A stretch of DNA of 38,780 nt, from positions 1 to 38,780 of the IMG/VR virus record IMGVR_UViG_3300009502_002963. One strand, written 5' to 3'. Positions 943 to 26,934 of this stretch are shown one piece after another. Source of the stretch: a virus. The translations under genes and the position numbers were made by a program. Within the stretch, counting starts at the first letter, position 1, and each line of letters begins with the position of its first letter. Under the pieces are notes generated by a model. That model had not been told where the DNA came from. It made no database searches and saw nothing but the letters and a program-made list of their open reading frames with translations.

Positions 943-2610
943 TCATTTTGTGGCCCCGGCGGTGGCTCCGTTGGCACCGTAAGCCGTGAGAGCTTCCTCG
1001 ATCAAAGCGACCTGGCGTCCAGGAGCCAGGTCGGCGAAAAACAACCGAATGCTGCGCTCCAGTTCCCTGGGCGATTTGCTCTCCAGGATGAGTTGCCGAA
1101 CCGGCGCGTAGGCTCCGCGGAACGCTCGCGCCAACCCCGCCGAGCCATTGCGGGCGATTTCATCGCCGGCCTTTTCTGCCACCGCGACGTGAGCCGGCAC
1201 ATCCGCAGTCAGCGCCGTCAAAGCAGCCGAGCCAAAAGGATTCCCGACCGGCGATGGCGTGGCCATGCGACGAACCTGCATCCCGAATTTTTCCGACAGA
1301 CCGGGCAACGCTTCATCCGTCGGTTCCAGTCCGGCGTCGCGCATGTTCTTGAGCAACTCACCGAGCGCCTTTTGCTCGGCGGGCGATACGGAACCAAAGA
1401 CCGCTTTGGGCACCGCGCCGCGCCGACCATTGATTCGGGCCAACTGCGCGAACAGTTGTTGCTTGAGCGTGCGGCCCAACACCGTGCTGTCCCACACGCG
1501 AAAGTCCTGGCGCACCGCCTCCTGCGCCGTCCCGACGCCGCTGTTCATTCCGCCACCAGTCTGCCCTTCAGAGGTTGCGGTCTGGCCGAGGATGATTTGC
1601 GCAATCTCCCTCTTGGCCGTGTCCCTGAAAACCTTGAACGCATCGCCCGACTGATTGGACGCCTGGATCAGTTGGAACGAAGTCTCCTTGCTGATGACCA
1701 AACCGCCAATGCGCAGGGAAAACTGAACCGCTCGCTGCGCAAGCCTGCGGCTTTCGTCGTCGCTCTGGTTGTATTGGATGACAGGGAACGGCATCCCAAA
1801 CCGATCCAGGAAGCGCGCCCAACCGTCCCGGTTCAGCGCCATGAATAACCACCAGAACAGCAGCGCCCGCATCGGGCCGCCCCAGTTGTCCGGCGTGCTC
1901 AGGAGATGGCCGCGGTGAATGATGTATCGTTCCGGGTCGGCTTCATGGCGCTGGCCGGTCAACGCGCCGTTGGCGTCCACGTCCCAGATCAGCATCCGGC
2001 CGGTGGTGTAGTCGAGCAAGTGATGCGGCACCGGCACGAGCGCGCGCAGTTCAAACCGCAACCCCGGCTTCGTGCTCGGACGAAAAACTTTCTCGGTCAG
2101 ACTGACCGGCCAGAGATGGCCGTCCATGATGGCGGCGAGGACGTTGAGCCAGGGGGTGAGATTTTCAAACTCCGCGGCAATCGGCGGCGGCGCGTCATAA
2201 CTATCAATCGCGTCCCTGATCATCTGCGCCGTATCCACGTCGTCGGGGTTGTTTTTATCCGGCGGCAAAATCGCCATCACGTCGCCGAGCACGGCCAGCT
2301 TGCGCGTCGAGAACAGAGTCTGAATGTAACCGTCGGACATCACCACGTCGCGGAATAAAGAAAACAGGTCGCGCACCGCGCCGCTCTCTGCCCCGCGCAA
2401 AATGGCGTGCAGGCGGTCCGCGTCCACCATGTGGCCGAGCGCGGGCGGCTCGTAGCGCGAGTTGACGATGGTCCAACGCGCGACGGGAACCGGCTGCGGT
2501 GCCGGTTCAACCTTGACCGTCGGATCGGTGGCCGTCGGCGCGGGCGCGGGCAATGCCAGTTGCGTCCGGGCCGGGTTCGTTGGAGATGTTGGGGATGATG
2601 TTTTAGACAT
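943..2610 (-). CDS. Portal protein, Mu gp29-like (DUF935)
   Basis: A 555-residue DUF935 protein, the portal through which DNA enters and leaves the capsid. Recognised by its order of conserved stretches: ESG-VRDLFSLFRDVV, a tryptophan/phenylalanine-rich core around LLFWWLFMALNRDGWARFLDRFG, and the segment ending QIILGQTATSEGQTGG. The N-terminal 50 residues are Pro/Ala/Thr-rich and probably disordered. The chosen ATG at 2610 has GAGGAA about 10 nt upstream and overlaps the stop of the terminase nuclease gene by 8 bp. The frame is open further upstream, but that stretch lies inside the nuclease gene. It is the last gene of the leftward late operon, and its stop is only about 43 bp from the candidate left-end motif. 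In Mu the portal gene is followed directly by gene F; here F is 18 kb away on the other strand. Confidence 0.9.
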   Translation of the reverse strand: MSKTSSPTSPTNPARTQLALPAPAPTATDPTVKVEPAPQPVPVARWTIVNSRYEPPALGHMVDADRLHAILRGAESGAVRDLFSLFRDVVMSDGYIQTLFSTRKLAVLGDVMAILPPDKNNPDDVDTAQMIRDAIDSYDAPPPIAAEFENLTPWLNVLAAIMDGHLWPVSLTEKVFRPSTKPGLRFELRALVPVPHHLLDYTTGRMLIWDVDANGALTGQRHEADPERYIIHRGHLLSTPDNWGGPMRALLFWWLFMALNRDGWARFLDRFGMPFPVIQYNQSDDESRRLAQRAVQFSLRIGGLVISKETSFQLIQASNQSGDAFKVFRDTAKREIAQIILGQTATSEGQTGGGMNSGVGTAQEAVRQDFRVWDSTVLGRTLKQQLFAQLARINGRRGAVPKAVFGSVSPAEQKALGELLKNMRDAGLEPTDEALPGLSEKFGMQVRRMATPSPVGNPFGSAALTALTADVPAHVAVAEKAGDEIARNGSAGLARAFRGAYAPVRQLILESKSPRELERSIRLFFADLAPGRQVALIEEALTAYGANGATAGATK

Positions 2611-3331
2611 AGAGTTTCGATTCCTCGCCGGACCCGTCGAGGCTGGTCCAGCCTTCGCGTTTCTTCGCCCAGGCAGCATCATCATCGCTGACTCGGCCAA
2701 GTGGTCCCGCCAGCACGGGATAAGCTTCGACGCGCTCGCCAATCGAAACGAGCGCCTTCAGGCTGGCACCGATGGCGCAAAAACAGTCAGCGTGGTTTCC
2801 CGCCTTATCCACCTCGGCCTCGAAGCCGCCCTTCTCGCGCCGCGTCTGGCGGATGTCGTCGCGCAGCCAGGTGGCGCTCGGCACCCACAGCTTGCCGTCG
2901 GACATGCTGTTGACGACAAGATTTCCGAGGTAGGTTTTTACCATCATCCTCTCGCCGCGATACAGGATGGACTCGCTCTCGATCACGAGTTCCACCGGCA
3001 GCACGCCCGACAGTTCCCTGGCCAGGTCGGCGGCAAAGAACCGCTCGCTGGTGGCCAGCACGCAAAGCTTTCTCGCCCGGTGGCCTGTCGACCGCACCAA
3101 CGCTTCGCGCAGCACGGCGCGCGTCACGTTGGGATTGTCGGTCTTGAATCGCACCACGGCCCGCACGATGAACGTGTCGCCGCGCCGCTCAGTGACGGCG
3201 ATGGCAGTCGGGTTCGACTTCTTTTTTGCCGTGGTCGCCGGATCGAGGCCGATGCCGATAGGACCGGTGCCAAGTAGTTCCTCCCAACCGGCCGGCCAGA
3301 CCTCTCCCGCGGTGATGCGTCGGTCCATCAT
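2603..3331 (-). CDS. Large terminase, nuclease half (Mu gp28 C-terminal domain)
   Basis: A 242-residue protein equivalent to the C-terminal RNase H-fold nuclease of the large terminase, which cuts phage DNA during packaging. The first acidic residue is Asp30 in GIGLDPATT and the last is probably Asp182 in NHADCFCA; Glu118/Glu120 lie between. There is no ATPase domain in this gene; it is in the separate gene at 3477-4550. The start MMDRR at 3331 overlaps the stop of the intervening 49-codon gene by 4 bp (ATGA), so translation is likely coupled. Mu gp28 is a single two-domain protein; here the break falls at the interdomain linker. Summed lengths (357 + 242) match a normal TerL. Confidence 0.85.
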   Translation of the reverse strand: MMDRRITAGEVWPAGWEELLGTGPIGIGLDPATTAKKKSNPTAIAVTERRGDTFIVRAVVRFKTDNPNVTRAVLREALVRSTGHRARKLCVLATSERFFAADLARELSGVLPVELVIESESILYRGERMMVKTYLGNLVVNSMSDGKLWVPSATWLRDDIRQTRREKGGFEAEVDKAGNHADCFCAIGASLKALVSIGERVEAYPVLAGPLGRVSDDDAAWAKKREGWTSLDGSGEESKLYV

Positions 3332-3477
3332 GCGCGCCTCCGATGCCACCAGACGCCAACCCACCAGCTACGCCACACCCGCGCCGAAAATTTCCAATAA
3401 ACAGGATAGTAAGGCCAAAACGAAATTCGCCCGTCGCAACATCCGTGGCCGGCGTAGAATTGGAAGTTTCCGATCAT
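3328..3477 (-). CDS. 49-residue protein between terminase halves
   Basis: Unrecognised. It starts MIGNFQFYAG and is very rich in aromatic residues (seven Trp and four Tyr in 49), with a paired Cys (CC) near residue 13 and an Arg-rich tail. Support for its being a real gene is its position: its ATG overlaps the stop of the ATPase gene (TGATG) and its stop overlaps the ATG of the nuclease gene (ATGA). It could be a small packaging factor, a membrane-active peptide, or simply a coupling ORF that carries ribosomes from one terminase half to the next. Confidence 0.55.
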   Translation of the reverse strand: MIGNFQFYAGHGCCDGRISFWPYYPVYWKFSARVWRSWWVGVWWHRRRA

Positions 3478-4550
3478 CACGGCACGATCTCCTCGGTGAT
3501 GGCGTTGCACTTGCCTTCGTTGCGGCCGAGGTCCATCGCGCGCTCGACGACCGAGAGCGGCACCGCGGCCATGCCGCTGCGTTTGAAGGCCAGCGCGAAG
3601 TTGCGGTCCCACGCGTCCTTGTCGAAGTAGAGCTGTCGGTCTTCTTCCGGCGTGATGACCGCTCCGGTGTCGGGGTGGTAGCACTTCAATCCCGCCGCCT
3701 GGCGGTCGAACGCATCCACGCGGTGAACCCAAATCTTCGAGGGCGAGAGATACCAGTTGCCTTTGGCGCGCACCGCGAACGATTCCTGCGGAGGGCAAAA
3801 CAGTTCCCACGAATAATGGGTGTCGTCGAGCGGCGAGGTTGAAGACCAGATGTATTGGAACTGCGGATTGTCCGACATGATCGGGTCAATGGATTCCTTG
3901 ACCTCTTTCAAGGCGTCAATCCGCGCCCACTCATCCACGAAGACGTGGCCGCCGTAACCGACCGCGCGCGGCGTTGGCGCGAGCACGAGCGTGCGGCTGC
4001 ACGTGGTGCGGTCGTGCCAGAGCCGCGTGACGAGTTTGTTTTGCTCGAAAATATCGCAGAGCGCGTCGAGGTCCACACCGTCGGCGTCGGACTCGAATTT
4101 CATCCCGCGCTTCGCCGCCTGGTCGCGCATCTTCCGCAGCAGCAATTGCCAGACGAACGCTTCTTTGCGGATGTATTCCTCGCCGAGCAGCAGCGACGCC
4201 GAGAGAAAGAACACGTCTACGCCGCGCGTCTCGGCCATCAGCCGGAACGCCTTCGCGCCGCCGGTCGTGGACTTGCGAGCGCGTCGGCACCAAAGCCAGC
4301 ATTGGCGGCGCGGCGTGTCGGTCCAGAAGACTTCGTTTTGGTAGGCGGTGAAGCTGTCGGCAACGATGGCCGATGGCTCCGCGCCAGGCGCAGTCGGCTG
4401 TGGCGTGCGATATGATCCCCACTGCGCTTTCTCATCCGCCGCAGCCTGCTCTGGAGGCACGCCGTAGGGTTCATCGGACGATGGGGATTTGAACGCGTGT
4501 TCGTCGAGAACCACGGAAGCGGATTTTCCGCGAAGTTTGGAGGCTTTCAT
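3477..4550 (-). CDS. Large terminase, ATPase half (Mu gp28 N-terminal domain)
   Basis: A 357-residue packaging ATPase. A degenerate Walker A of the terminase type (RRARKST, residues 89-95), Walker B HVFVDE (202-207) and a coupling motif SSTS (236-239) are visible. The protein stops after the ATPase core, before any nuclease residues. A strong ribosome site (GGGAGGAAAC) sits directly before the ATG at 4550. It lies 12 bp after the small terminase gene and overlaps the next small gene. Together with 2603-3331 it should form the packaging motor that docks on the portal. Confidence 0.88.
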   Translation of the reverse strand: MKASKLRGKSASVVLDEHAFKSPSSDEPYGVPPEQAAADEKAQWGSYRTPQPTAPGAEPSAIVADSFTAYQNEVFWTDTPRRQCWLWCRRARKSTTGGAKAFRLMAETRGVDVFFLSASLLLGEEYIRKEAFVWQLLLRKMRDQAAKRGMKFESDADGVDLDALCDIFEQNKLVTRLWHDRTTCSRTLVLAPTPRAVGYGGHVFVDEWARIDALKEVKESIDPIMSDNPQFQYIWSSTSPLDDTHYSWELFCPPQESFAVRAKGNWYLSPSKIWVHRVDAFDRQAAGLKCYHPDTGAVITPEEDRQLYFDKDAWDRNFALAFKRSGMAAVPLSVVERAMDLGRNEGKCNAITEEIVP

Positions 4551-4562
4551 GTTTCCTCCCGT

Positions 4563-5225
4563 CTATGCCACGCCGGCCATCGGCCCGGTTGGCGCGTCGG
4601 GACGCTTGCCGAACATGAGCCGGATCAGCTTGTCCATCTTGATCGGATGCGGGTCGCTGCTGTTGAGAATGTCCGCCAGTTGTTTAACGCCGATTTTCTC
4701 CACCGCCTCAGCCGCGTCCCACTGGAACTTCTGGACGTTCAATGTCACCGCGGCCTTGCGGTTTTCCTCGGCCTGCAACTGCACGACTTTCTCAACGAGC
4801 GAAAGCAAATCCTTGGGCCGGTCCGCGAGCAGTTCGCTGATGGCCGAGGGCGTCAGATGCTCGTCGAGCGCCGCGAGCAGCCGGCTGCCGGAGAGATTCG
4901 CCGCCGCGTCCGCGGGGCTTCCGCCGGTCTTGCGCGTGAGGTCGGCCGAGAACTCCACCAGCCCTTTGGTTTGGTCGAGTTCATCCTGGCGTTGGAGCCA
5001 TTCCTTGTAGCCGCCGTTGCGCCAGGCTGAAAGGTTTTGGTCGCTGACCGCTTCGGCGCGCCAGCGTTTCTTCAGGATCGCCTTGACGGCCGGCATCGCA
5101 TTGAGCCAGGGCAAAATCGTGGCGCTCGACTCGCCATCTCGAAGTCGCGCATTCAGTTCATCGCGGACCGTCTTCGGCATCCGGCCGATCTTGCCCTTGC
5201 GTGCGGTGGTGTCTGGCGCGCTCAT
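4563..5225 (-). CDS. Small terminase subunit, Mu gp27-like (DUF3486)
   Basis: A 220-residue DUF3486 protein, the family to which the DNA-recognition subunit of Mu-like terminases belongs. The N-terminus carries the characteristic KGKIGRMPKTVRDELN-R-RDGE pattern (about residues 10-33), followed by an HTH-like region and a helical, charged C-terminal half. Its ATG overlaps the stop of the small zinc protein gene by 4 bp. It precedes the two large-terminase genes, as in Mu, though the whole block is on the opposite strand to the structural genes. Confidence 0.88.
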   Translation of the reverse strand: MSAPDTTARKGKIGRMPKTVRDELNARLRDGESSATILPWLNAMPAVKAILKKRWRAEAVSDQNLSAWRNGGYKEWLQRQDELDQTKGLVEFSADLTRKTGGSPADAAANLSGSRLLAALDEHLTPSAISELLADRPKDLLSLVEKVVQLQAEENRKAAVTLNVQKFQWDAAEAVEKIGVKQLADILNSSDPHPIKMDKLIRLMFGKRPDAPTGPMAGVA

Positions 5226-5404
5226 AATGCCGGCTCAAACTCCTTCGACGTGAGATGCCATCCCTGGCAGGCGGGACAATAGTAGGCACGCAGTCGTTCC
5301 GGCCGGTTGGAGTGTCGCCTCAATGCTGCGTTCATCGCCGTCCGCGCGTCTTTCTTCGACGGGTAACGGTTCTTAGCACTGCACGTTTGGTGGGGGTTGC
5401 TCAT
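5222..5404 (-). CDS. Small zinc-ribbon-like phage protein
   Basis: A 60-residue basic protein starting MSNPHQTC. It ends with a CPACQGWHLTS motif, the CxxCxGWHLT signature of small phage proteins of unknown function that probably bind one zinc ion (with Cys8 or the His as further ligands). It overlaps both neighbours by 4 bp (ATGA on each side) within the lysis/terminase operon. Function unknown; DNA or RNA binding is plausible from the basic composition. Confidence 0.7.
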   Translation of the reverse strand: MSNPHQTCSAKNRYPSKKDARTAMNAALRRHSNRPERLRAYYCPACQGWHLTSKEFEPAL

Positions 5405-5631
5405 GCCAACCTGAGTTGACGCTCCAGTTCGGCCGTTTGTTCCTCTGCCGCAGTCAGCCATATCTCGGCCGCATCCATGTCTTCGCCGATCAGGGCGTCG
5501 AACACGTCCAGCATTCTAGCCAGCAGCTTACGGTCGTGCTTCAGCGCCGCGAGAGCGCGTTTCAGCCGTGTGCCGGTTGCCGACTTCTGACTTCTGACCT
5601 CTGACTTCTGATTTCTGGTTTCCGTTTTCAC
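5401..5631 (-). CDS. Small helical hypothetical protein
   Basis: About 76 residues. The GTG at 5631 overlaps the stop of the peptidase gene (GTGA) and its stop overlaps the next ATG, which supports it in spite of the rare start. The first 20 residues are encoded by the heptamer array at 5583-5617 (repeated QKSEVRS type) and are probably unstructured. The rest is a charged helical segment (LKRALAALKHDRKLLARML, then a Glu-rich tail). No family recognised. Confidence 0.5.
   Translation of the reverse strand: MKTETRNQKSEVRSQKSATGTRLKRALAALKHDRKLLARMLDVFDALIGEDMDAAEIWLTAAEEQTAELERQLRLA
5583..5617. repeat. Heptamer tandem array (ACTTCTG type)
   Basis: Five head-to-tail 7-bp units, ACTTCTG with one-base variants; on the minus strand they read CAGAAGT. 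The array lies inside the N-terminal coding part of the small gene at 5401-5631. It is one of about twenty arrays in this window with an exact 7-bp period. Confidence 0.85.
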
Positions 5632-6422
5632 GACACCAGTTGGATTTGCCAGAAGTCGCTCGCGAGATTCGGGTTGGCAGCGTAGGCGAACGGCATCGTG
5701 AAATAACCCTGCTGTCCCCACTTCACGCCCCAGGAGTTGCGAACCAACAGCCGCTGGCTCGGCAGATCGTAGCCGACCGCCAGCACCGCATGACCGCCAA
5801 GATTCGCCTCGTGCGGCTGCGGCAGATTCAACACGCCGGTCTGCGCCACGGCGTCGCCCTCGAAACCCGCATAGACCGTGAACCCGAACACAACCGGAAA
5901 ACCGGCGGCGAGGCACGACTGGATGGAGGCCGGGAACTGCGGCACGCGGGCGTAGTTCACGGCCTTGTGCTGCACCGCGTGGGCGTAGCACGGCGCTGGC
6001 GGCTTCACGGCAAACAGCGGCGGATTGTAAGGCCACTCGCTTTCCGGGCAATCGCCGTTCGTGGCCACGCTCTTGATGCCGTCGCGGATTTGCGCGCCGC
6101 AATCCGAGTGGATCGTGCCCTCCATCGCGCGCTCGTTGAAGTAAATGAACAGGCGCGACGGCATGAAGTTCGGCAGCTTCTGGCGCAACCGGTCGAACTC
6201 CAGCGCCGCGGCGATGGCGTTCGCTGTGCAGCTTCCGAGTTCCTCCTGGTCGTAAACTGCCGGCATGTTCGGCCCGCGCAGGTCCACGTGCGGCGGCAGC
6301 GCGGCCGGCGGCATGAAGGCCATGCAGAGCCGGTCGCGGTGGTCCGGCAGGTCGCGATGCCAGCCGTAACGACGGCCGAGGCGCGACTTGGAGGATAGGA
6401 GCGAAGGAGTGTTGGGGTTCAT
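5628..6422 (-). CDS. Papain-like (C1A) cysteine peptidase
   Basis: A 264-residue protein with all three elements of a C1A peptidase: nucleophile Cys65 in ELGSCTANA, His211 in NLGGHAVLAVGYD, and Asn229 in VRNSWGVKWG. There is no signal peptide or propeptide, so it would act in the cytoplasm unless released by a holin. It sits directly after the lipoprotein and holin-like genes, where Mu-like phages carry an endolysin, and no lysozyme, amidase or transglycosylase is found anywhere in the window. A lysis role is therefore inferred from context; virion protein processing is an alternative. Its ATG overlaps the lipoprotein stop by 4 bp. Confidence 0.85.
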   Translation of the reverse strand: MNPNTPSLLSSKSRLGRRYGWHRDLPDHRDRLCMAFMPPAALPPHVDLRGPNMPAVYDQEELGSCTANAIAAALEFDRLRQKLPNFMPSRLFIYFNERAMEGTIHSDCGAQIRDGIKSVATNGDCPESEWPYNPPLFAVKPPAPCYAHAVQHKAVNYARVPQFPASIQSCLAAGFPVVFGFTVYAGFEGDAVAQTGVLNLPQPHEANLGGHAVLAVGYDLPSQRLLVRNSWGVKWGQQGYFTMPFAYAANPNLASDFWQIQLVS

Positions 6423-19171: not shown

Positions 19172-19518
19172 GAAACATCTCGTTCTCTCTGACCGAGGCG
19201 CAGTTCCGCGCGCGCACCAAGACAGTGACGCGTAGGCTTGGATGGAAGAAGTTGAAGCCGGGCACGCTGTTATGCGGCGTCCGCAAGGCGATGGGGTTAA
19301 AGCCCGGCGAGAAAATCATCCGGCTCGGCAACATCCGCGTTGTCAGTGTTCGGCGTGAGTCGCTGATCGCAATCACAATGGAGGATTGTGCGCGGGAAGG
19401 TTTCCCCGAACTCGGTCCAGTTGAGTTCATCGAGATGTTCAAGCACCACATGGGCTGTTTGGGGTTTGCTGCGGTCACGCGGATCGAATTTGAATACGTA
19501 GAGGAGGCTGCGCGATGA
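19168..19518 (+). CDS. ASCH-domain protein
   Basis: A 116-residue protein matching the phage ASCH family: MRNISFSLTEAQFRARTKTVTRRLGW at the start is typical, then LKPGTLLCGVRKAMGLK, LGNIRVVSVRRESL and EGFPELGPVEFIEMF. ASCH folds resemble PUA domains and are linked to RNA binding; one bacterial member (YqfB) is an amidohydrolase of N4-acetylcytidine. Here substrate and role are unknown. It overlaps the radical-SAM gene by 4 bp, so the two may act together. Confidence 0.82.
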   Translation: MRNISFSLTEAQFRARTKTVTRRLGWKKLKPGTLLCGVRKAMGLKPGEKIIRLGNIRVVSVRRESLIAITMEDCAREGFPELGPVEFIEMFKHHMGCLGFAAVTRIEFEYVEEAAR

Positions 19519-20228
19519 GCCTGAAGAAATCCGCTGGCAACATGTATCCCTGGGTGACGCATACCCACAGCCATCTGCGCGGCGGGTGTCCGCACCGCTG
19601 CGGCTACTGTTACGTCCAGGCGATGGAGAGGAAGTTTAGCGGCGGCCACTACACGGGGCCGCTGCGGCTTGAGGAAAAGGAGTTCAAGGTCAACTATGGC
19701 GTTGACCGGACCATATTCATTGAGCACTGCAACGACCTATTTGCTGACGACATCCCCGGCGATTGGATTCGCAGAATCCTCGCCCACTGCGCGGAGTGGC
19801 ATCAAAATAATTACGTCCTTCAAACAAAGAACGTCGGCCGCCTGGTCCAGTTGCTTGCGAATCGCGCCGTTCGCTGGCCGCTCAAGTTCATGGTCGGAAC
19901 GACGATTGAAAGCAACCGATGGCACGACGTGATGGGCAAAGCGCCAACGCCGCAACTGCGCATCGGAAACTTCAAACGCCTGCGCTCCTACTGGCCGCAA
20001 GTGCCGGCGTTCATCACCATCGAGCCGGTCCTGGACTTCGACGATTCGGAACTTATCGAGTGGATCGCGATGGCGCGGCCGGACTTCATCAACATCGGCG
20101 CGGATTCCAAAGGCCACGGCCTTCAAGAGCCGGACGCAGCGAAGATCATGCGTCTAATCAACGGAGTGACCGCAGCGGGCATTCCAATCCGGCAGAAGCA
20201 CAACCTCGACCGGCTGTTGAAGTCATGA
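19515..20228 (+). CDS. Radical-SAM-like DUF5131 (phage Gp37/Gp68 family) protein
   Basis: A 237-residue protein of the DUF5131 family. The cluster motif GGCPHRCGYCYVQ gives Cys25-x3-Cys29-x2-Cys32, the radical-SAM 4Fe-4S pattern. The barrel-like part continues with FIEHCNDLFADDIPGDWI, NYVLQTKNVGRLV, KFMVGTTIESNRW and FITIEPVLDFD. Such proteins occur in many phages with no known substrate; nucleic acid or nucleotide modification is the usual guess. It is coupled to the ASCH gene upstream and a small gene downstream by ATGA overlaps. Confidence 0.82.
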   Translation: MSLKKSAGNMYPWVTHTHSHLRGGCPHRCGYCYVQAMERKFSGGHYTGPLRLEEKEFKVNYGVDRTIFIEHCNDLFADDIPGDWIRRILAHCAEWHQNNYVLQTKNVGRLVQLLANRAVRWPLKFMVGTTIESNRWHDVMGKAPTPQLRIGNFKRLRSYWPQVPAFITIEPVLDFDDSELIEWIAMARPDFINIGADSKGHGLQEPDAAKIMRLINGVTAAGIPIRQKHNLDRLLKS

Positions 20229-20661: not shown

Positions 20662-20954
20662 AGCCCACCGACGACAAAGCGTTTGAGACCTGGTTCGCGT
20701 CGAAGATGCCGCGCCCGGCGGCGCGCCAACATTGGACCGCCTACGACACGCTGCGCGACTGGTCGCGCAAAGGCTGGCGCGAGTGCCGCGAGCGGATGGA
20801 GGACAGTGGGCAGTTGACAGTGGACAGTGGACAGCGGGCGCGAGTAGCCGCGTTGCTCCGTAACGCGCATCGTCAAGCTGCAATCGCGTCGCAGAGTGAC
20901 GCGGCTGCCCCAATCACCAATCACGAATCACCAGTCACGAGTCACCATGCCTGA
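20658..20954 (+). CDS. Hypothetical protein with repeat-encoded C-terminus
   Basis: A 98-residue protein. Its first 48 residues look genuine (FETWFASKMPRPAARQHW, TAYDTLRDWSRKGW). The rest is largely encoded by two heptamer arrays (20802-20836 and 20911-20945) and the sequence between them, so the C-terminal half is probably repeat-derived. It overlaps the start of the head gene by 8 bp. Confidence 0.6.
   Translation: MKPTDDKAFETWFASKMPRPAARQHWTAYDTLRDWSRKGWRECRERMEDSGQLTVDSGQRARVAALLRNAHRQAAIASQSDAAAPITNHESPVTSHHA
20802..20836. repeat. Heptamer tandem array (GACAGTG type)
   Basis: Five units: GACAGTG, GGCAGTT, GACAGTG, GACAGTG, GACAGCG. It is the reverse-complement family of the CCACTGC arrays. 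Confidence 0.88.
20911..20945. repeat. Heptamer tandem array (CAATCAC type) abutting a start codon
   Basis: Five units, CAATCAC twice, GAATCAC, CAGTCAC, GAGTCAC, ending one base before the ATG of the MuF gene. No Shine-Dalgarno sequence is present here, so the array replaces the normal leader. Confidence 0.9.
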
Positions 20955-22584
20955 CACCGGCTTCCTTTTTAATCCTGTCCCGCACGCGGAGGCGATTGCG
21001 TTCCTCAAGAGCAAGCCGGTTGTGGCGCGGCGCGTGTTCGATCAAATGCTGCCGGAGATCAAAGGCCGGGCGTTCACCATCACCGGCATCGAAGACGCCC
21101 ACGTGATGCAAGGCGTGCTGGACCGGATTGCGGAGTTGCCGGAAGGCGCGGTGTGGGACGACGTGAAGCGCGACATCGTGAATGACATCTCGCCGTGGAT
21201 CAGCGACCCCGATCTTCCCGGTTCGACGGCCGCGGCCGAGGCGCGGGCGGAACTGTTGATGCGAACGCACGGCTTCCAGGCTTACGAGTCGGCGACGCAT
21301 CGGGCCATCGTCGAGAACGCCGACGTGTTTCCCTACAGCATGTATGTGACGGCCGGCGACGACCGCGTTCGCGACACGCACGCGGCGCTCAACGGCGTGA
21401 CGCTGCCAACGCTCGATCCGTTTTGGGACACGCACACCGGGCCGTGGGAATGGGGTTGCCGTTGCACGAAGGTCCCCAAGACCGCCGAGGAGGTTGGCGA
21501 GATTCGCGATGCGGACGCGGACCGGCTGCCGGAGGAACGGCAACTGATCGAGGGCGCGGCCCGGCGCAAGCTCGACGAGAACGGCACGCTGTTTCGGTCG
21601 GTGAACGGCGCGGCGGCGCAGAACTTCGACGTGCGCGCGCCGATAGAAAAGGCGACGACAGCCGCCGAGCGCGCGGCGGCGTATCAGTGGAACCCGAACA
21701 CGCTCCGGCTGCCGCTAGAGCAACTGAAGGCGCGCTACGACGCTCCGGCGTGGCAGGTGTTTGAAAACTTCGCGCGCGCGCAAACGCTCGACACCGAGGG
21801 CACCACGGTTTGGGAATGGCTCGGCGGCTCGCCGATCCTGCCACCGGAATCTTCCGCGACGTTACCGAAGAAGACGCCGGACAGCATCGAAGCGGCTCTG
21901 GCTCGCCTCGGTCTCGACAAGAAGGTCGAGTGGGAAGAAAAAGACGTGCGGGCGCTGATTTCGGAAATGCGGGAAACGGAGCCGGCGAAGGCCACTGATT
22001 TCGTCAGTTCGATCACCGGCGAAACCACGAAAGGAAAGTTCTCGGCAAAGTCCATTATGGCGACCATCCAGGAGGTTGTTGATTTTCTTCCCCGGCCTGT
22101 CGCGGAGTTGTTGCCGAAATTCGATGTTCGGCTGGAGCAGTCGATTGGCAGCGGGACGCTCGGCAGCTACAACGACAAGACCCACACCTTGAAAATCTCC
22201 CGGACGGCCCACAACAAGGGCGGCGCGGCGCTCCTGCACGAGACGATCTATCACGAGTTGACGCACTGGATTCACATGCACGGTCCGCAGGCGTATCGCG
22301 ATGCCATCAAGGCGCTCTATGACAAGAGAACGGCCGGAGAGTCGCTCGTCAACGTGGGCTACACAAACCCGGTCCGAAAGGACAAGTGGTGGTGGAACTA
22401 CGCCGGCTCGCAGTATCTCACGCGGGGAGAAACTGCAAAGACGGTCGCCGGCCTGGAAGTGCCCACGACGCACGTTGAACTGCTGGCGCGGCCCGCAAGG
22501 CTCGCGAATCTCATCAACGAAAAACCCGACGCGTTGATTATCGAAAACCTCCGTGTCATCCTTGAAGTGTTCTTCAGCGCATGA
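20947..22584 (+). CDS. MuF minor head protein fused to a C-terminal HExxH metallopeptidase domain
   Basis: A 545-residue protein. Residues 15-180 are a phage Mu gpF/SPP1 gp7 head-morphogenesis domain: YVTAGDDRVRDTHAALNGV and the closing GPWEWGCRCTKVP (Cys171, Cys173). The family alone is much shorter. Residues about 330-545 form a second domain with GSYNDKTHTLKIS, then LLHETIYHELTHWIHMHG, where HELTH (436-440) is a zincin HExxH motif; a Glu/His in THVELLARP may be the third zinc ligand. MuF proteins with C-terminal toxin domains are a known class of phage polymorphic toxins injected with DNA. Here the extra domain would be a protease. The next gene overlaps by 4 bp and could encode its immunity or inhibitor protein. 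A role in head maturation is the alternative. Confidence 0.82.
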   Translation: MPDTGFLFNPVPHAEAIAFLKSKPVVARRVFDQMLPEIKGRAFTITGIEDAHVMQGVLDRIAELPEGAVWDDVKRDIVNDISPWISDPDLPGSTAAAEARAELLMRTHGFQAYESATHRAIVENADVFPYSMYVTAGDDRVRDTHAALNGVTLPTLDPFWDTHTGPWEWGCRCTKVPKTAEEVGEIRDADADRLPEERQLIEGAARRKLDENGTLFRSVNGAAAQNFDVRAPIEKATTAAERAAAYQWNPNTLRLPLEQLKARYDAPAWQVFENFARAQTLDTEGTTVWEWLGGSPILPPESSATLPKKTPDSIEAALARLGLDKKVEWEEKDVRALISEMRETEPAKATDFVSSITGETTKGKFSAKSIMATIQEVVDFLPRPVAELLPKFDVRLEQSIGSGTLGSYNDKTHTLKISRTAHNKGGAALLHETIYHELTHWIHMHGPQAYRDAIKALYDKRTAGESLVNVGYTNPVRKDKWWWNYAGSQYLTRGETAKTVAGLEVPTTHVELLARPARLANLINEKPDALIIENLRVILEVFFSA

Positions 22585-22844
22585 AAACCATCTGCACAAC
22601 TTTGGAGTGGCCAGACGGAAAGAAGGTCGTCATCACCGGCGTCTGGGAAAACCAATGGGATGAAGCACCGCTGGCCTACGAGGGCGAAACAAGCCGCCTT
22701 CTTACATTGATGTCTTGGCGGAAGTCGTTACCGAAGAGCTACGACGGCCGCGCCTACGAAGGCATGTGGGAAAATATTGCCAAGAAGAACGGCATCCAAG
22801 CGCACACTGAAACGAGCGGCAAGTGGACTGCCGCAGAAATGTAG
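22581..22844 (+). CDS. Small protein after MuF-peptidase (immunity candidate)
   Basis: An 87-residue acidic/aromatic protein starting MKTICTTLEW, with strand-like KKVVITGVWENQW and helices around LLTLMSWRKSLP and MWENIAKKNG. It overlaps the MuF-metallopeptidase gene by 4 bp and lies between F and G, which are adjacent in Mu. A small unrelated gene directly behind a toxin-like domain is the usual position of a cognate immunity gene. No family recognised; the role is inferred only from position. Confidence 0.65.
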   Translation: MKTICTTLEWPDGKKVVITGVWENQWDEAPLAYEGETSRLLTLMSWRKSLPKSYDGRAYEGMWENIAKKNGIQAHTETSGKWTAAEM

Positions 22845-22857
22845 AGCCGCAATCCTC

Positions 22858-23367
22858 ATGAGCCTTTCCTACCAGGACCGGATCAGTCCGAAGCTGCTCG
22901 AACTGGCGCGGGGCATCAGCGACCGCCGGCCGATCCTGGAAGCAATGGGCGTCAAGTTCCGCGGATACATCGTCGAGAGTTTCACCAACCCGGCGCTGCG
23001 GATTGCGACCTGGCCGGCGAAGAAAGACGGCTCCGCGAGCGTGCTGTTCAAGAGCGGCCAACTCAAGAAGGGCATCCATGTTTCCGCCGTCACCAACGAC
23101 ACAGTGACCGTCTCGACGCTCGATCTTCCCTACGCGTTCATCCAGCAGTTTGGAGGCACAACGCGGGCGCATGTCATCGAGGCGCTCAACAAACGCGCGC
23201 TGGCGTGGCCGGGCGCGGCGCATCCGGTGCGTCGAGTGAATCATCCAGGATCGAAGATTCCGGCGCGGCCGTATTTCCCAATCGGGCCGGATGGGCGGAT
23301 GCAGCGCGCCAACTACGTCATCGCCAACGTCGCGCGCGAGAAGATCAAGGCGATGCTGAGGCGGTAG
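22858..23367 (+). CDS. Virion morphogenesis protein, Mu gpG-like
   Basis: A 169-residue protein of the phage virion morphogenesis family (Mu gpG, tail completion/connector). Typical features are the N-terminal helical part, VLFKSGQLKKGIHVSAVTNDTVTV, YAFIQQFGG, and the C-terminal PARPYFPIG motif. The start at 22858 was chosen because it gives the normal family start; no strong ribosome site is visible. It ends the early/middle operon; the next 183 bp carry a palindrome and the late promoter candidate. Confidence 0.82.
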   Translation: MSLSYQDRISPKLLELARGISDRRPILEAMGVKFRGYIVESFTNPALRIATWPAKKDGSASVLFKSGQLKKGIHVSAVTNDTVTVSTLDLPYAFIQQFGGTTRAHVIEALNKRALAWPGAAHPVRRVNHPGSKIPARPYFPIGPDGRMQRANYVIANVAREKIKAMLRR

Positions 23368-23382
23368 CGCGGCGCGCCGCCT

Positions 23383-23453
23383 GTAGCCGCCGACGTGAGG
23401 AGGCGAAAACATTGCGGCGGGGCAAACATCCACCTCCTTACGTCGGTGGCTAC
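23383..23453. repeat. Palindromic repeat element (21-bp arms)
   Basis: The left arm 23383-23403 (GTAGCCGCCGACGTGAGGAG...) and inverted right arm 23433-23453 match at 19/21, around a 29-nt centre. It lies between gpG and the late promoter candidate and may also act as a terminator of the middle operon. It has the look of a host-type dispersed repeat. Confidence 0.8.
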
Positions 23454-23480
23454 TGGGCCAAAATCATTCCTGAATCTTTT

Positions 23481-23521
23481 TCTGGAAAGGGTGGAAAGCA
23501 TAGACACCATCACCTGACGGC
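23481..23521 (+). promoter_or_regulatory. Candidate late promoter/activator site, rightward copy
   Basis: The plus-strand copy of the 41-bp element also found inverted at 8350-8390 (39/41 identical, first 32 bp identical). It begins TTCTGGAAAGGGTGGAAAGC and continues with ATAGACACCATC. It ends 29 nt before the GTG of the protease gene that opens the rightward late operon. The tandem TGGAAAG words spaced 9 bp could be activator half-sites. Confidence 0.6.
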
Positions 23522-23550
23522 GCGCGGCGTGTTCTGCAATCCTCGCGCCC

Positions 23551-24864
23551 GTGCAGAACGACATTTACCGACTGGTCCCGCTGAGCGCGTTGATGAAACT
23601 CGACGCGACCAAGGAACTTCCCACGCGGCTCACGCTACTGAAGTGGGGCCGCAACGAGACGACCAAGGGTCCGGTGATGGTCGGCCCGAAGACATTGTCG
23701 GTGCTTCCGCGCAACCAGGCGTTGAACGGCTTCGACAGCGTGGCGCTCGACTTCGAGCACAACACGGTGCCCGGCAGCCCCGAATACCTCCGCAGCCAGG
23801 AGCCACGGCCCATTGGAGCGAAGGGCAAGCCGTTCGTCGAACTCAACATCGGCCTCGGCATTGACAACCCGCGATGGACGCCGGACGGCAGCAAGTTCGC
23901 GGGCGAGGGGCATTACGAGGATTTGTCCGGGGCGGTCGCGCTGGATGAAAACAACGAGGTCATCTTCCTGCACAGCGGCGCGCTCTGCCGCCAGGGATCG
24001 GCGCGCGACATCCATCTCTTTTCCGCCGGCATCGGCGCGGACGGCAAGCTCGTGACGCTGGCCGCGGCGGTGAAGAAGGAAGCGGACGGCGAGCATTCCT
24101 GCTCGCATTACCTCGTCGCCGAGAATCCCGATGAGCCTTCGACCTGGCATCTGCGGGTCAAGGGCAGCGACGGAAAGCCGGATCACACCCTGATGGGCGC
24201 TGCCTGGGCGGCGCTGCACGAAGGTTATCGGGGCAACCAATACGACGGGCCGAAGAAAACCGACGCCCTCGACAAGCTGAAGTCCCTCTACAAGTCCGAA
24301 AACATGCCCGTGCCGGGCGAAACCCAAACCCACAATCCCATGAACAATAAATTCCTCATCCAACTTTTCAACGCCGCGGGCGCGGCGCTCAAGCCCGACG
24401 CCTCCGATGCCGACGTGGACGCCGCGGGCGCGGTCTTCATCACGCGGTTTACCGCGCTGCTCAAGGGCGGCGGCGCGTCCACGGCCGCTCCCGTGGACCT
24501 CGCGCCGGTCAACACCAGGCTCGACACCTTCAAGGCTTCGATGGACGCGCTGAACGTCCGGTTCGACGCGCTCGACCGCGAGGCCATCGTCCGCGACGCC
24601 AGCATCGAGGGCAAGGTTGTCCCGGCCTCCGCGCTGCCGGACAAGGACGGCAAAGGCGGCTACACCATTCCGCAGCTTCGCGCGCTCGTCGCCGAACTTC
24701 CGGTGACGGTGCCGGTCAGCCAGCGCACGCCGACGAATCTCAAGACGCTCGCCGCCTCTTCGATGTCCGTGTCGCCAGAGTCGCAGGCCATCAGCAACCA
24801 ACTCGGAATCACCGAGGAAGAGCGGACGAAGTGGGGCGGCCAGGGGACCGCGGTGAAGAAGTAA
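23551..24864 (+). CDS. Head maturation protease/scaffold, Mu gpI-like
   Basis: A 437-residue protein. The N-terminal 250 residues match Mu-like prophage I protein (FDSVALDFEHNTVPGSPEY, GKPFVELNIGLGI, IHLFSAGIG), a serine-type capsid protease. The C-terminal 170 residues are Ala-rich and probably the scaffold. An in-frame Met264 (ATG at 24340, MNNKFLIQLF) lies at the boundary and could start a separate scaffold, as Mu does with gpZ, though its ribosome site is weak. The start is GTG at 23551, supported by spacing from the promoter-like element; ATG at 23593 is an alternative. Confidence 0.82.
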   Translation: MQNDIYRLVPLSALMKLDATKELPTRLTLLKWGRNETTKGPVMVGPKTLSVLPRNQALNGFDSVALDFEHNTVPGSPEYLRSQEPRPIGAKGKPFVELNIGLGIDNPRWTPDGSKFAGEGHYEDLSGAVALDENNEVIFLHSGALCRQGSARDIHLFSAGIGADGKLVTLAAAVKKEADGEHSCSHYLVAENPDEPSTWHLRVKGSDGKPDHTLMGAAWAALHEGYRGNQYDGPKKTDALDKLKSLYKSENMPVPGETQTHNPMNNKFLIQLFNAAGAALKPDASDADVDAAGAVFITRFTALLKGGGASTAAPVDLAPVNTRLDTFKASMDALNVRFDALDREAIVRDASIEGKVVPASALPDKDGKGGYTIPQLRALVAELPVTVPVSQRTPTNLKTLAASSMSVSPESQAISNQLGITEEERTKWGGQGTAVKK

Positions 24865-24870
24865 CCGCGC

Positions 24871-24919
24871 GTCACGAATCACGAACCACGAGTCACCAGT
24901 TACCAATCACCAATCACCA
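24871..24919. repeat. Heptamer tandem array (ATCACCA type), seven units
   Basis: GTCACGA, ATCACGA, ACCACGA, GTCACCA, GTTACCA, ATCACCA, ATCACCA, filling the gap between the protease and DUF2190 genes and ending just before the AGGGAGAAA ribosome site. Confidence 0.9.
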
Positions 24920-24935
24920 ATAGGGAGAAACAACC

Positions 24936-25382
24936 ATGCCAGCCACCGCAGACCTCCAAGCACCGCTGATGCAGGACACGTTCATCGTCCGTCCTGTTGA
25001 AGCCGCCACCAAACTCTTTGCCGGCACCATCGGCGCAGTCAACGCCGCGGGCAACGGCGTTCCCGCCGCCGACACCGCCGGTCTGAAGGTCGTCGGCCGC
25101 GTCGAAGAGCAGGTGGATAACACCAGCGCCGCGCCGGAGTGGATGGGCGTGAGCGGCAGCGCGGGAGACAAGAACGTCCGGCTGCGCCGCGAACCGTTCA
25201 AGGTCAAGAACTCGGAGTCCGATCCGGTCGTTCCCGCCGACCTGATGCATTTCGTCTATGTCGAAGACGACAGCACGGTGAGCCACGGCCCCGGCACGAA
25301 CCACATCGCCGCCGGCCTGTGCATCCAGATTGACGACGATGGGGTTTGGATTGACCCGGAGTTCGCCCCACTCGCGGTCTGA
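24936..25382 (+). CDS. DUF2190 capsid decoration-like protein
   Basis: A 148-residue DUF2190 protein (capsid cement/fibre family): PLMQDTFIVRPVEAATKLFAGTIGAVNAAG, recognisable in parts, then AGLKVVGRVEEQVDN, HFVYVEDDSTVS and LCIQIDDDGVW. It sits between protease/scaffold and major capsid genes, the usual place for decoration proteins. Good ribosome site AGGGAGAAA. Confidence 0.78.
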   Translation: MPATADLQAPLMQDTFIVRPVEAATKLFAGTIGAVNAAGNGVPAADTAGLKVVGRVEEQVDNTSAAPEWMGVSGSAGDKNVRLRREPFKVKNSESDPVVPADLMHFVYVEDDSTVSHGPGTNHIAAGLCIQIDDDGVWIDPEFAPLAV

Positions 25383-25387
25383 GTAGA

Positions 25388-25408
25388 GAAGCCAGAAGCC
25401 AGAAGTCA
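25388..25408. repeat. Heptamer tandem array (GAAGCCA type)
   Basis: Three units, GAAGCCA, GAAGCCA, GAAGTCA, just after the DUF2190 stop. Confidence 0.8.
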
Positions 25409-25430
25409 GAAACAAAATCAGGAAACGATC

Positions 25431-25931
25431 ATGCAACCCAAAAACCACAACTGGAAAACGTTCTTCGCGGGAGTCACCACGGGCGTTTGCGCCTTCGCCG
25501 TCATGCTGATTGGCATCGCGGCCAGCCCGACCGACAGCACCGTTCGCGATTATCTCCGGAGGCTGGTGGATTCGACGGCCACGCCGCCGCCGCTCTGCCA
25601 GGCGACGACGGGCCAGTTCAGCACCGTCATCGCCGCGACCAACAACGCGTTGACGATCCTGGTGACGACGAACGTCGCCGCGTCCGGCCGCGTGGACACG
25701 ATGGACCTCACCTCGACGAACAGCGTCAAGTCTGCCGTTGGCACGTTCAACGTGTTCAGCAACGGCATCTTTAGCTCCGCGAGCGGCACGATTCAGACGG
25801 GAACAGTCGGATCATTGCTTCCGGTCAGCCCTGTGCGAACGACGAACACGTTCATCGTTGGCACCAACATCATCACGATCATCATGGATGCTCTCAAAAT
25901 CATCCAGTCGTTCACCGTCACGCCGCTCTAA
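25431..25931 (+). CDS. Hypothetical head-region protein with N-terminal membrane/signal helix
   Basis: A 166-residue protein. Residues 11-31 are hydrophobic (FFAGVTTGVCAFAVMLIGIA), followed by a Thr/Ser/Asn-rich beta-type region and a hydrophobic end (NIITIIMDALKIIQ). It lies between DUF2190 and major capsid genes, with AGGAAAC before the ATG. A surface or decoration role is possible; family not recognised. Confidence 0.65.
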   Translation: MQPKNHNWKTFFAGVTTGVCAFAVMLIGIAASPTDSTVRDYLRRLVDSTATPPPLCQATTGQFSTVIAATNNALTILVTTNVAASGRVDTMDLTSTNSVKSAVGTFNVFSNGIFSSASGTIQTGTVGSLLPVSPVRTTNTFIVGTNIITIIMDALKIIQSFTVTPL

Positions 25932-25986
25932 CCCGTCACCATCTCCCATCTCCTAACGTCCATCTCCAAATCAAAGGAACCCAAAC

Positions 25987-26934
25987 ATGATCCTCAACCG
26001 ACAAGTCCTCCTCGACGCCAGCCGCGACTTCAAGCTCCTCTTCCAGGGCGGCATGGCGCAAGCCAAGCCGCTGTGGCCGAACATCGCCACCGAGTCGCCG
26101 TCGTCCACTTTCGCCGAGACCTATGGCTGGCTCAAGGACCTGCCTTCCATGCGCGAGTGGCTCGGCTCGCGCGTGGTTCACAATCTCGCGGCCAGTTCCT
26201 ACACGCTGATCAACCGCCCCTTCGAGTTGACCGTGAGCGTGCCGCGCGAAAACTTCGAGGATGACCGGCTTGGCGTCTTCCGCATCCCCTTCCTGAATCT
26301 GGGCGAGAGCGTGGCGATGTCCCCCGACCAGCTTATCTGGGCGATGCTGCTCAACGGCTGGAACACGCCCTGTTACGACGGCAAGGCTTACTTCGCCGAA
26401 GATCACCCGGTCGGCAATTCCTCGCTCGGCAACACGCTGGCGCTGCCGCTGGCCAATCTCACGGACAATCCGGCCGAGATCGGCGACAACTTCGGCCAGG
26501 CGTTCACGAAGATCAGCACCTTCACGAACGACACGGGCCAGCCGCTCGGCATCATCCCGTCGCACCTGTTCTACGGGCCGACGAACTTCGCCGCGGCCAA
26601 CCGCATCCTGCGCAGCGAGTATCTCTCGCCGGGCGTGAAGAACCCCTACTTCAACATCGCCGAGCCGGTGATGGTGCCGTGGTTCGGCATCTCGCCCATC
26701 TGGATTCTGGCCTGCTGCTCGCGCGTCGTGAAGCCGGTCATCCTCCAGCGCCGCAAGAACCCGGAGTTCGTGATGAAGAACGCGCTGACCGACGACAACG
26801 TGTTCTTCGACAAGGAGTTCGTCTATGGCGCGGACGACCGCAAGAATGTGGGCGTCTCGCTCTGGCAACTCGCCGTCGGCAGCACCGGCATCGTGCCGCA
26901 GGCAGCGAAGAGGTCGGAAGCTGCCAAGAAATAA
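25987..26934 (+). CDS. Major capsid protein, Mu gpT-like
   Basis: A 315-residue protein of the Mu major head subunit (gpT) family: LDASRDFKLLFQGG, FAETYGWLKDLPSMREWLG, ELTVSVPRENFEDDRLGVF, FAEDHPVG and a C-terminal DDRKNVGVSLWQLAVGS. It builds the icosahedral shell. AAAGGAACCC precedes the ATG. A strong hairpin follows the gene at 26971-27005. Confidence 0.92.
   Translation: MILNRQVLLDASRDFKLLFQGGMAQAKPLWPNIATESPSSTFAETYGWLKDLPSMREWLGSRVVHNLAASSYTLINRPFELTVSVPRENFEDDRLGVFRIPFLNLGESVAMSPDQLIWAMLLNGWNTPCYDGKAYFAEDHPVGNSSLGNTLALPLANLTDNPAEIGDNFGQAFTKISTFTNDTGQPLGIIPSHLFYGPTNFAAANRILRSEYLSPGVKNPYFNIAEPVMVPWFGISPIWILACCSRVVKPVILQRRKNPEFVMKNALTDDNVFFDKEFVYGADDRKNVGVSLWQLAVGSTGIVPQAAKRSEAAKK

Follow-up and report, generated by a model that had tools for sequence, protein, structure and literature searches.

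Probable fission of the terminase large subunit gene in Mu-like phages of Verrucomicrobia, with a gene junction that tolerates cargo

In the window, i.e., the whole 38,780-nt stretch of viral DNA analyzed here, the terminase large subunit (TerL) is encoded in two pieces, with the ATPase half and the nuclease half on separate genes, and the same split recurs in 32 non-redundant related loci from independent genomes and contigs. In other tailed phages, TerL is as a rule a single chain. We conclude that the TerL gene of Verrucomicrobia Mu-like phages has probably undergone fission, giving rise to a translationally coupled two-chain motor with a gene junction that tolerates cargo. The relevant features, all on the minus strand, are listed below.

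943..2607, minus strand: portal gene (PF06074 Portal_Mu, E 2.4e-55; phrog_113 portal)
2603..3331, minus strand: TerL nuclease half, RNase H fold, separate gene of 242 aa (PF17289, AlphaFold2, Foldseek)
3328..3477, minus strand: spacer with a 49-codon Trp/Tyr-rich ORF of doubtful coding status (open frame, Shine-Dalgarno (SD) site, stop/start overlaps)
3337..3341, minus strand: GGAGG, SD-like site 5 nt before the nuclease ATG (sequence, SD survey)
3477..4550, minus strand: TerL ATPase half, separate gene of 357 aa (family matches of relatives, profile match to T4 gp17)
3489..3494, minus strand: GAGGAG, SD-like site for the next start, within the ATPase codons for 'TEE' (sequence, enrichment in the clade)
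4563..5225, minus strand: probable small terminase (TerS) gene, upstream neighbor of the ATPase half (phrog_426 terminase small subunit, weak match, E 6.8e-4)

The two TerL genes and their prophage

The nuclease half matched PF17289 (Terminase_6C) with an E-value of 3.4e-4, just under the curated cut-off. Modeled alone with AlphaFold2, it reached a pLDDT of 84.6, and Foldseek matched the model to the G20c TerL nuclease (E 5e-6) and to T4 gp17 (E 2.5e-5). Residues D30, E96, and D182 are invariant across 30 split relatives, so that the protein has the RNase H-like nuclease domain with conserved acidic residues that is typical of TerL.

The packaging ATPase domain, with its Walker A, Walker B, and coupling motifs, was recognized mainly via relatives. 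The ATPase protein of the window alone had no family match in Pfam or PHROG, and NCBIfam matched no TerL of this group. Among the 16 aligned ATPase relatives, Terminase_6N matched 13 and phrog_2 (terminase large subunit) 15, and the ATPase profile matched T4 gp17 in the PDB (E 1.8e-5). The window motifs read 'CRRARKSTT' (a degenerate Walker A), 'HVFVDEWAR' (Walker B), and 'SSTS' (coupling motif); the Walker A consensus among relatives is WRRQxGKS. At 4230-4290 (minus strand), the window has 'RRARKST' where most relatives have 'RRQxGKS', i.e., the P-loop glycine of GK is replaced, and locus L004 is similarly changed. Because the window copy is divergent, with a long end branch (0.94) and a Walker A motif without the usual GK glycine, it could itself be weakened even if the clade is sound.

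The prophage looks Mu-like. The Mu-like head order of TerS, TerL halves, and Mu-type portal is present, TerS resting on the weak phrog_426 match and the portal on PF06074. The portal gene adjoins the nuclease gene downstream and is the last phage gene at this prophage end; the next gene outward is a cytochrome-c-like ORF. The TerS-TerL-portal block (943-5225, minus strand) lies at the prophage end and faces outward. The portal is not directly followed by the MuF and capsid genes of a Mu-like head module; MuF- and capsid-like ORFs, read by eye, are found at about 20896-26934 on the plus strand, about 18 kb from the portal block. Inspection by eye also revealed, at 9.2-9.9 kb, a repressor-like gene; at 12.3-14.4 kb, where a transposase would be expected, a 720-aa ORF; an AAA-like ORF; and, further right, MuF-, protease-, and capsid-like ORFs.

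Two other genes of the prophage deserve mention. A papain-family cysteine protease, an unusual phage enzyme, is encoded at 5628-6422 (minus strand; PF00112, E 1.9e-13) in the lysis/late region. An ORF in the early region (19515-20228, plus strand) has a CxxxCGYCYxxxM-like start (YPWVTHTHSHLRGGCPHRCGYCY), a radical-SAM-type resemblance seen by eye only.

The window is part of genome G000 (7.1 Mb, 126 contigs). This genome contains a second Mu-like TerL, L007 on contig C16, which is one chain of 591 codons, showing that fused and split forms live in one host.

Recurrence and history of the split

To survey relatives, we searched an ATPase profile against the phylum and class of the window, IMG/VR, and GTDB contigs and classified each locus by its ORFs. 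This yielded the 32 split loci (30 in the main set plus L131 and L135) and about 50 fused ones. Named relatives belong to the Verrucomicrobiota, and further copies occur in other genomes of the same phylum. Split members come, among others, from Akkermansia genomes (one of them a single contig) and from the isolate Geminisphaera colitermitum TAV2; they include L003 in the single-contig genome G031, L099 in an Akkermansia muciniphila record, and L096 and L097 in TAV2. A tblastn search for relatives in cultured phages or plasmids returned none. As both domains lie on separate ORFs in 32 loci rather than in one polypeptide, we refer to a two-chain TerL, not an ordinary TerL.

The preliminary description had placed the ATPase and nuclease genes at these coordinates, with their motifs, had set them apart from single-chain TerLs, and had suggested a search for the same split in relatives; the survey bears out this reading. 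It had also argued against a sequencing error, which is ruled out because the split recurs in independent genomes. The description had named a fused close relative, together with indels joining the two frames, as evidence against the split. Fused relatives do exist (L058, L110, and also L007, from the genome of the window itself), but indel errors do not explain a split found in independent genomes. What the description missed is that the split characterizes a whole clade, that it comes with a slot for cargo, and that reversion to a single chain apparently happened twice.

The break was likewise correctly assigned to the interdomain linker. The AlphaFold2 model of the one-chain relative L058 (pLDDT 89.6) matched T4 gp17 (E 6.5e-16) and other terminases, and in this model the point equivalent to the split falls in a loop that connects strand 292-295 (VKIT) to helices 305-316.

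In an unrooted two-domain tree computed without the far outgroup, the 30 split rows together with L058 and L110 fell on one side (support 99/81). L058 nests within the split group (100/99), and a clade of split loci only was rejected (p 2e-7). The linkers of L058 and L110, both one-chain proteins, retain tails of the split type, and the 'ITE' tail that L058 keeps is absent from the linkers of type I and type II fused TerLs. Judging from these sequences, L058 and L110 were most likely re-fused. A fission followed by two fusions is the simplest account, from which we infer the direction of change. A topology with the Akkermansia group held outside the split group gave an AU p of 0.44; this group may represent a separate origin, and the split may have arisen once or twice.

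The relatives also differ in where the block lies. With contig ends as no more than a proxy for phage ends, the median distance from the end of the ATPase match to the portal-side contig end was 2.5-3.8 kb in split (non-Akkermansia), re-fused, and type II fused phages and 20.6 kb in type I fused phages; two Akkermansia-type loci had 10 and 23 kb. A TerS-TerL-portal block at the end is common to split, re-fused, and type II fused relatives, whereas it is internal in type I fused ones.

Junction signals and cargo between the halves

The ATPase stop codon lies within [AG]TGA in 27 of the 30 split loci, compared to 7 of 30 nuclease-portal junctions with an open frame and 9 of 53 stops of fused TerLs. 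The ATPase stop and the nuclease start overlap directly in 14 of the 30 loci, 13 times by exactly 4 nt and once (L111) by 8 nt. The remaining 16 loci have one or more ORFs between the halves, on the same strand and mostly joined on both sides by ATGA or GTGA. In the window, the overlaps TGATG and ATGA are present as the preliminary description stated: the ATG of the 49-codon ORF overlaps the ATPase stop by 1 nt (TGATG), and the nuclease ATG overlaps the stop of the 49-codon ORF by 4 nt (ATGA). If the 49-codon ORF started instead at the GTG one codon upstream, its overlap with the ATPase stop would be 4 nt (GTGA).

ATPase tails read ..ITEEI.., ..ITEAI.., ..SKEV.., or ..AGEEV.., and their codons often hold GGAGG 7-10 nt before the restart codon. 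SD duplex energy averaged -7.8 at the junction, compared with -2.5 in the interior of these genes (combined p 4e-20, with related loci treated as independent) and with -5.4 under synonymous recoding, a weak enrichment (combined p 0.03). Eight loci without an SD site still keep an ITE or ITD tail, which suggests that the tail may also matter as protein. A role of the 'ITEE' tail as a docking motif only was not upheld, since it often encodes the SD site; both roles are possible.

Identifiable cargo includes a C5-cytosine methyltransferase in L050 (4879-6123; PF00145, E 6.8e-69) and an N4/N6 methyltransferase in L098 (7134-8039; PF01555, E 2.9e-35), both possibly anti-restriction cargo. L115 carries a gp49/66-family protein (PF13876, E 7e-19) and L052 a 65-aa small protein distantly similar to the product of 5222-5461 in the window. 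The other inserts are orphans of 55-231 aa; the 2.1-kb insert of L098 was cut into ORFs mechanically, and several of the short ORFs obtained in this way are unlikely to be genes. Pfam and PHROG scans of 19 insert ORFs for homing endonucleases (HNH, GIY-YIG, LAGLIDADG) found none. Inserts are clearly related between loci in two pairs only (L053-L112 and L094-L103), and among the sister loci L043, L044, and L047, whose ATPases are 78-83% identical, each has a different, unrelated insert, which shows that cargo turns over fast.

L050, L094, and L103, three related prophages of the Mu-like type that share the IMG genome number 2517572100, combine differing ATPase halves (52-86% identical), nuclease halves (60-70%), and cargo. 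We considered whether splitting promotes the exchange of halves and found no excess: both halves had the same nearest neighbor in 13 of 30 split and 20 of 48 fused loci.

Taken together, we propose that the TerL gene underwent fission at the ATPase-nuclease linker in a clade of Verrucomicrobiota Mu-like phages. Ribosomes ending the ATPase would restart at the ATGA or GTGA overlap, usually helped by the SD site that lies within the last ATPase codons. The ATPase and nuclease proteins would then come together on the portal as a functional TerL whose parts are not covalently joined; we infer this two-chain assembly, the translational coupling, and the activity of the halves. The new gene boundary would act as a tolerated slot that captures unrelated genes such as methyltransferases and small orphans, all oriented alike and for the most part joined by the same overlaps. 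The window would be one such case, with a slot of about 147 nt, translated or not.

Alternative explanations and known systems

The preliminary description regarded the 49-codon ORF as a gene linking the halves. We consider it distinctly unlikely that it encodes a real small protein bridging or regulating them. Its open frame, SD-like site, and exact stop/start overlaps on both sides favor such a protein, and real genes occupy the same slot in relatives. However, 14 of the 30 split relatives have no insert and the remaining inserts are unrelated to it, and a search for the 49-residue protein in relatives found no homolog. The candidate role as a conserved bridging subunit was rejected because relatives lack it. 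Its codon score of -0.19, from a model trained on the window, places it among the lowest-scoring 2% of gene windows from this region; one reverse frame scores higher, and GC2 exceeds GC1. Searched as a repeat within its own genome, the spacer matched itself only. For most insert ORFs of relatives the annotated frame is the best one, and the L050 methyltransferase has a low codon score too. Because short foreign genes can fail codon tests, the 49-codon ORF is doubtful as a gene rather than disproved. That an intron, an intein, or programmed frameshifting joins the ORFs into one TerL chain after all appears extremely unlikely. There is a precedent in the Jug phages, in which group I introns are reported to interrupt terL and splicing to restore it (PMC12363816), and some loci without an insert have a nuclease frame that stays open through the ATPase stop. 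Yet Rfam matched no self-splicing intron between the halves in the window or in five insert loci, and 14 loci have no insert at all. A slippery heptamer within the last 90 nt before the ATPase stop was found in no more than 3 of the 30 loci, and its position varied, which argues against a recurrent site. Frameshifting cannot span inserts that measure 150-2100 nt and in some cases comprise complete enzyme genes, and overlaps of stop and start codons together with SD sites are the signals expected if the genes are translated separately.

The long branch, the degenerate Walker A, and the poor quality of the spacer could point to a decaying prophage remnant in which TerL was broken by mutation. 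We regard this as very unlikely, since the same break is common to distant, intact-looking relatives. Moreover, both window halves keep open frames and codon bias, the nuclease keeps its acidic residues, and the prophage carries a full-length set of further ORFs; the conservation of catalytic residues in both halves argues for selection, not decay. It is also unlikely, though less so, that the split is the ancestral state of these Mu-like phages and that their single-chain TerLs represent three or more fusions. The Akkermansia split group does branch first when three distant outgroup rows are included, but this root depends on a branch of length ~2.4, the single chain is the rule in other tailed phages, and type I and II fused linkers lack the 'ITE' tail.

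Beyond fission with a cargo-tolerating junction, a bolder reading, which we consider tentative and on balance unlikely, would make the nuclease a separately dosed subunit, with fewer nucleases than ATPases per ring or recruitment for cleavage only, and the boundary a standing slot for cargo capture. Restart at the overlap would yield fewer nuclease than ATPase chains, and cargo, e.g., DNA methyltransferases, would be produced alongside the packaging machine.

A mechanistic question on viral DNA motors is whether the packaging ATPase has to share a single chain with the headful nuclease, and this clade offers a natural experiment on it: two-gene TerLs over a wide divergence, nested single-chain relatives, and varied junction cargo. 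For annotation, half-length TerLs in this group should not be called pseudogenes, and marker-based methods that rely on TerL will encounter a pair of short proteins in place of one.

The two-gene TerL clade looks undescribed, in the sense of not found rather than proven new: among open PMC full texts, the only split terminase described earlier was the intron-split terL of the Jug phages. There, terL is also in pieces, but RNA splicing restores one chain, whereas the present search turned up no intron, and each piece has a start and a stop codon of its own. Single-chain TerLs (T4 gp17, Mu gp28, Terminase_6N/6C) share the ATPase and RNase H domains, their order, and the TerS-TerL-portal neighborhood; here, in contrast, two genes meet at a junction with SD site and overlap, often with other genes between them. 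A closer parallel in form is provided by the genes-in-pieces of T4-like phages, i.e., nrdA/mobE in Aeh1, topoisomerase 39/60 with mobA, and split gene 43, in which a single-chain phage enzyme became two genes with foreign sequence between them and whose products work, according to a review (PMC2988022). In those cases, the split goes with a homing endonuclease gene or with a spacer that is not translated (PMC2988022), whereas the tested inserts here have no homing-endonuclease match, many loci are insert-free, and the split is clade-wide. The cargo itself resembles phage morons, unrelated genes gained at one spot with fast turnover among sisters; unlike morons, it is placed between the two halves of one enzyme and joined to them by stop/start overlaps.
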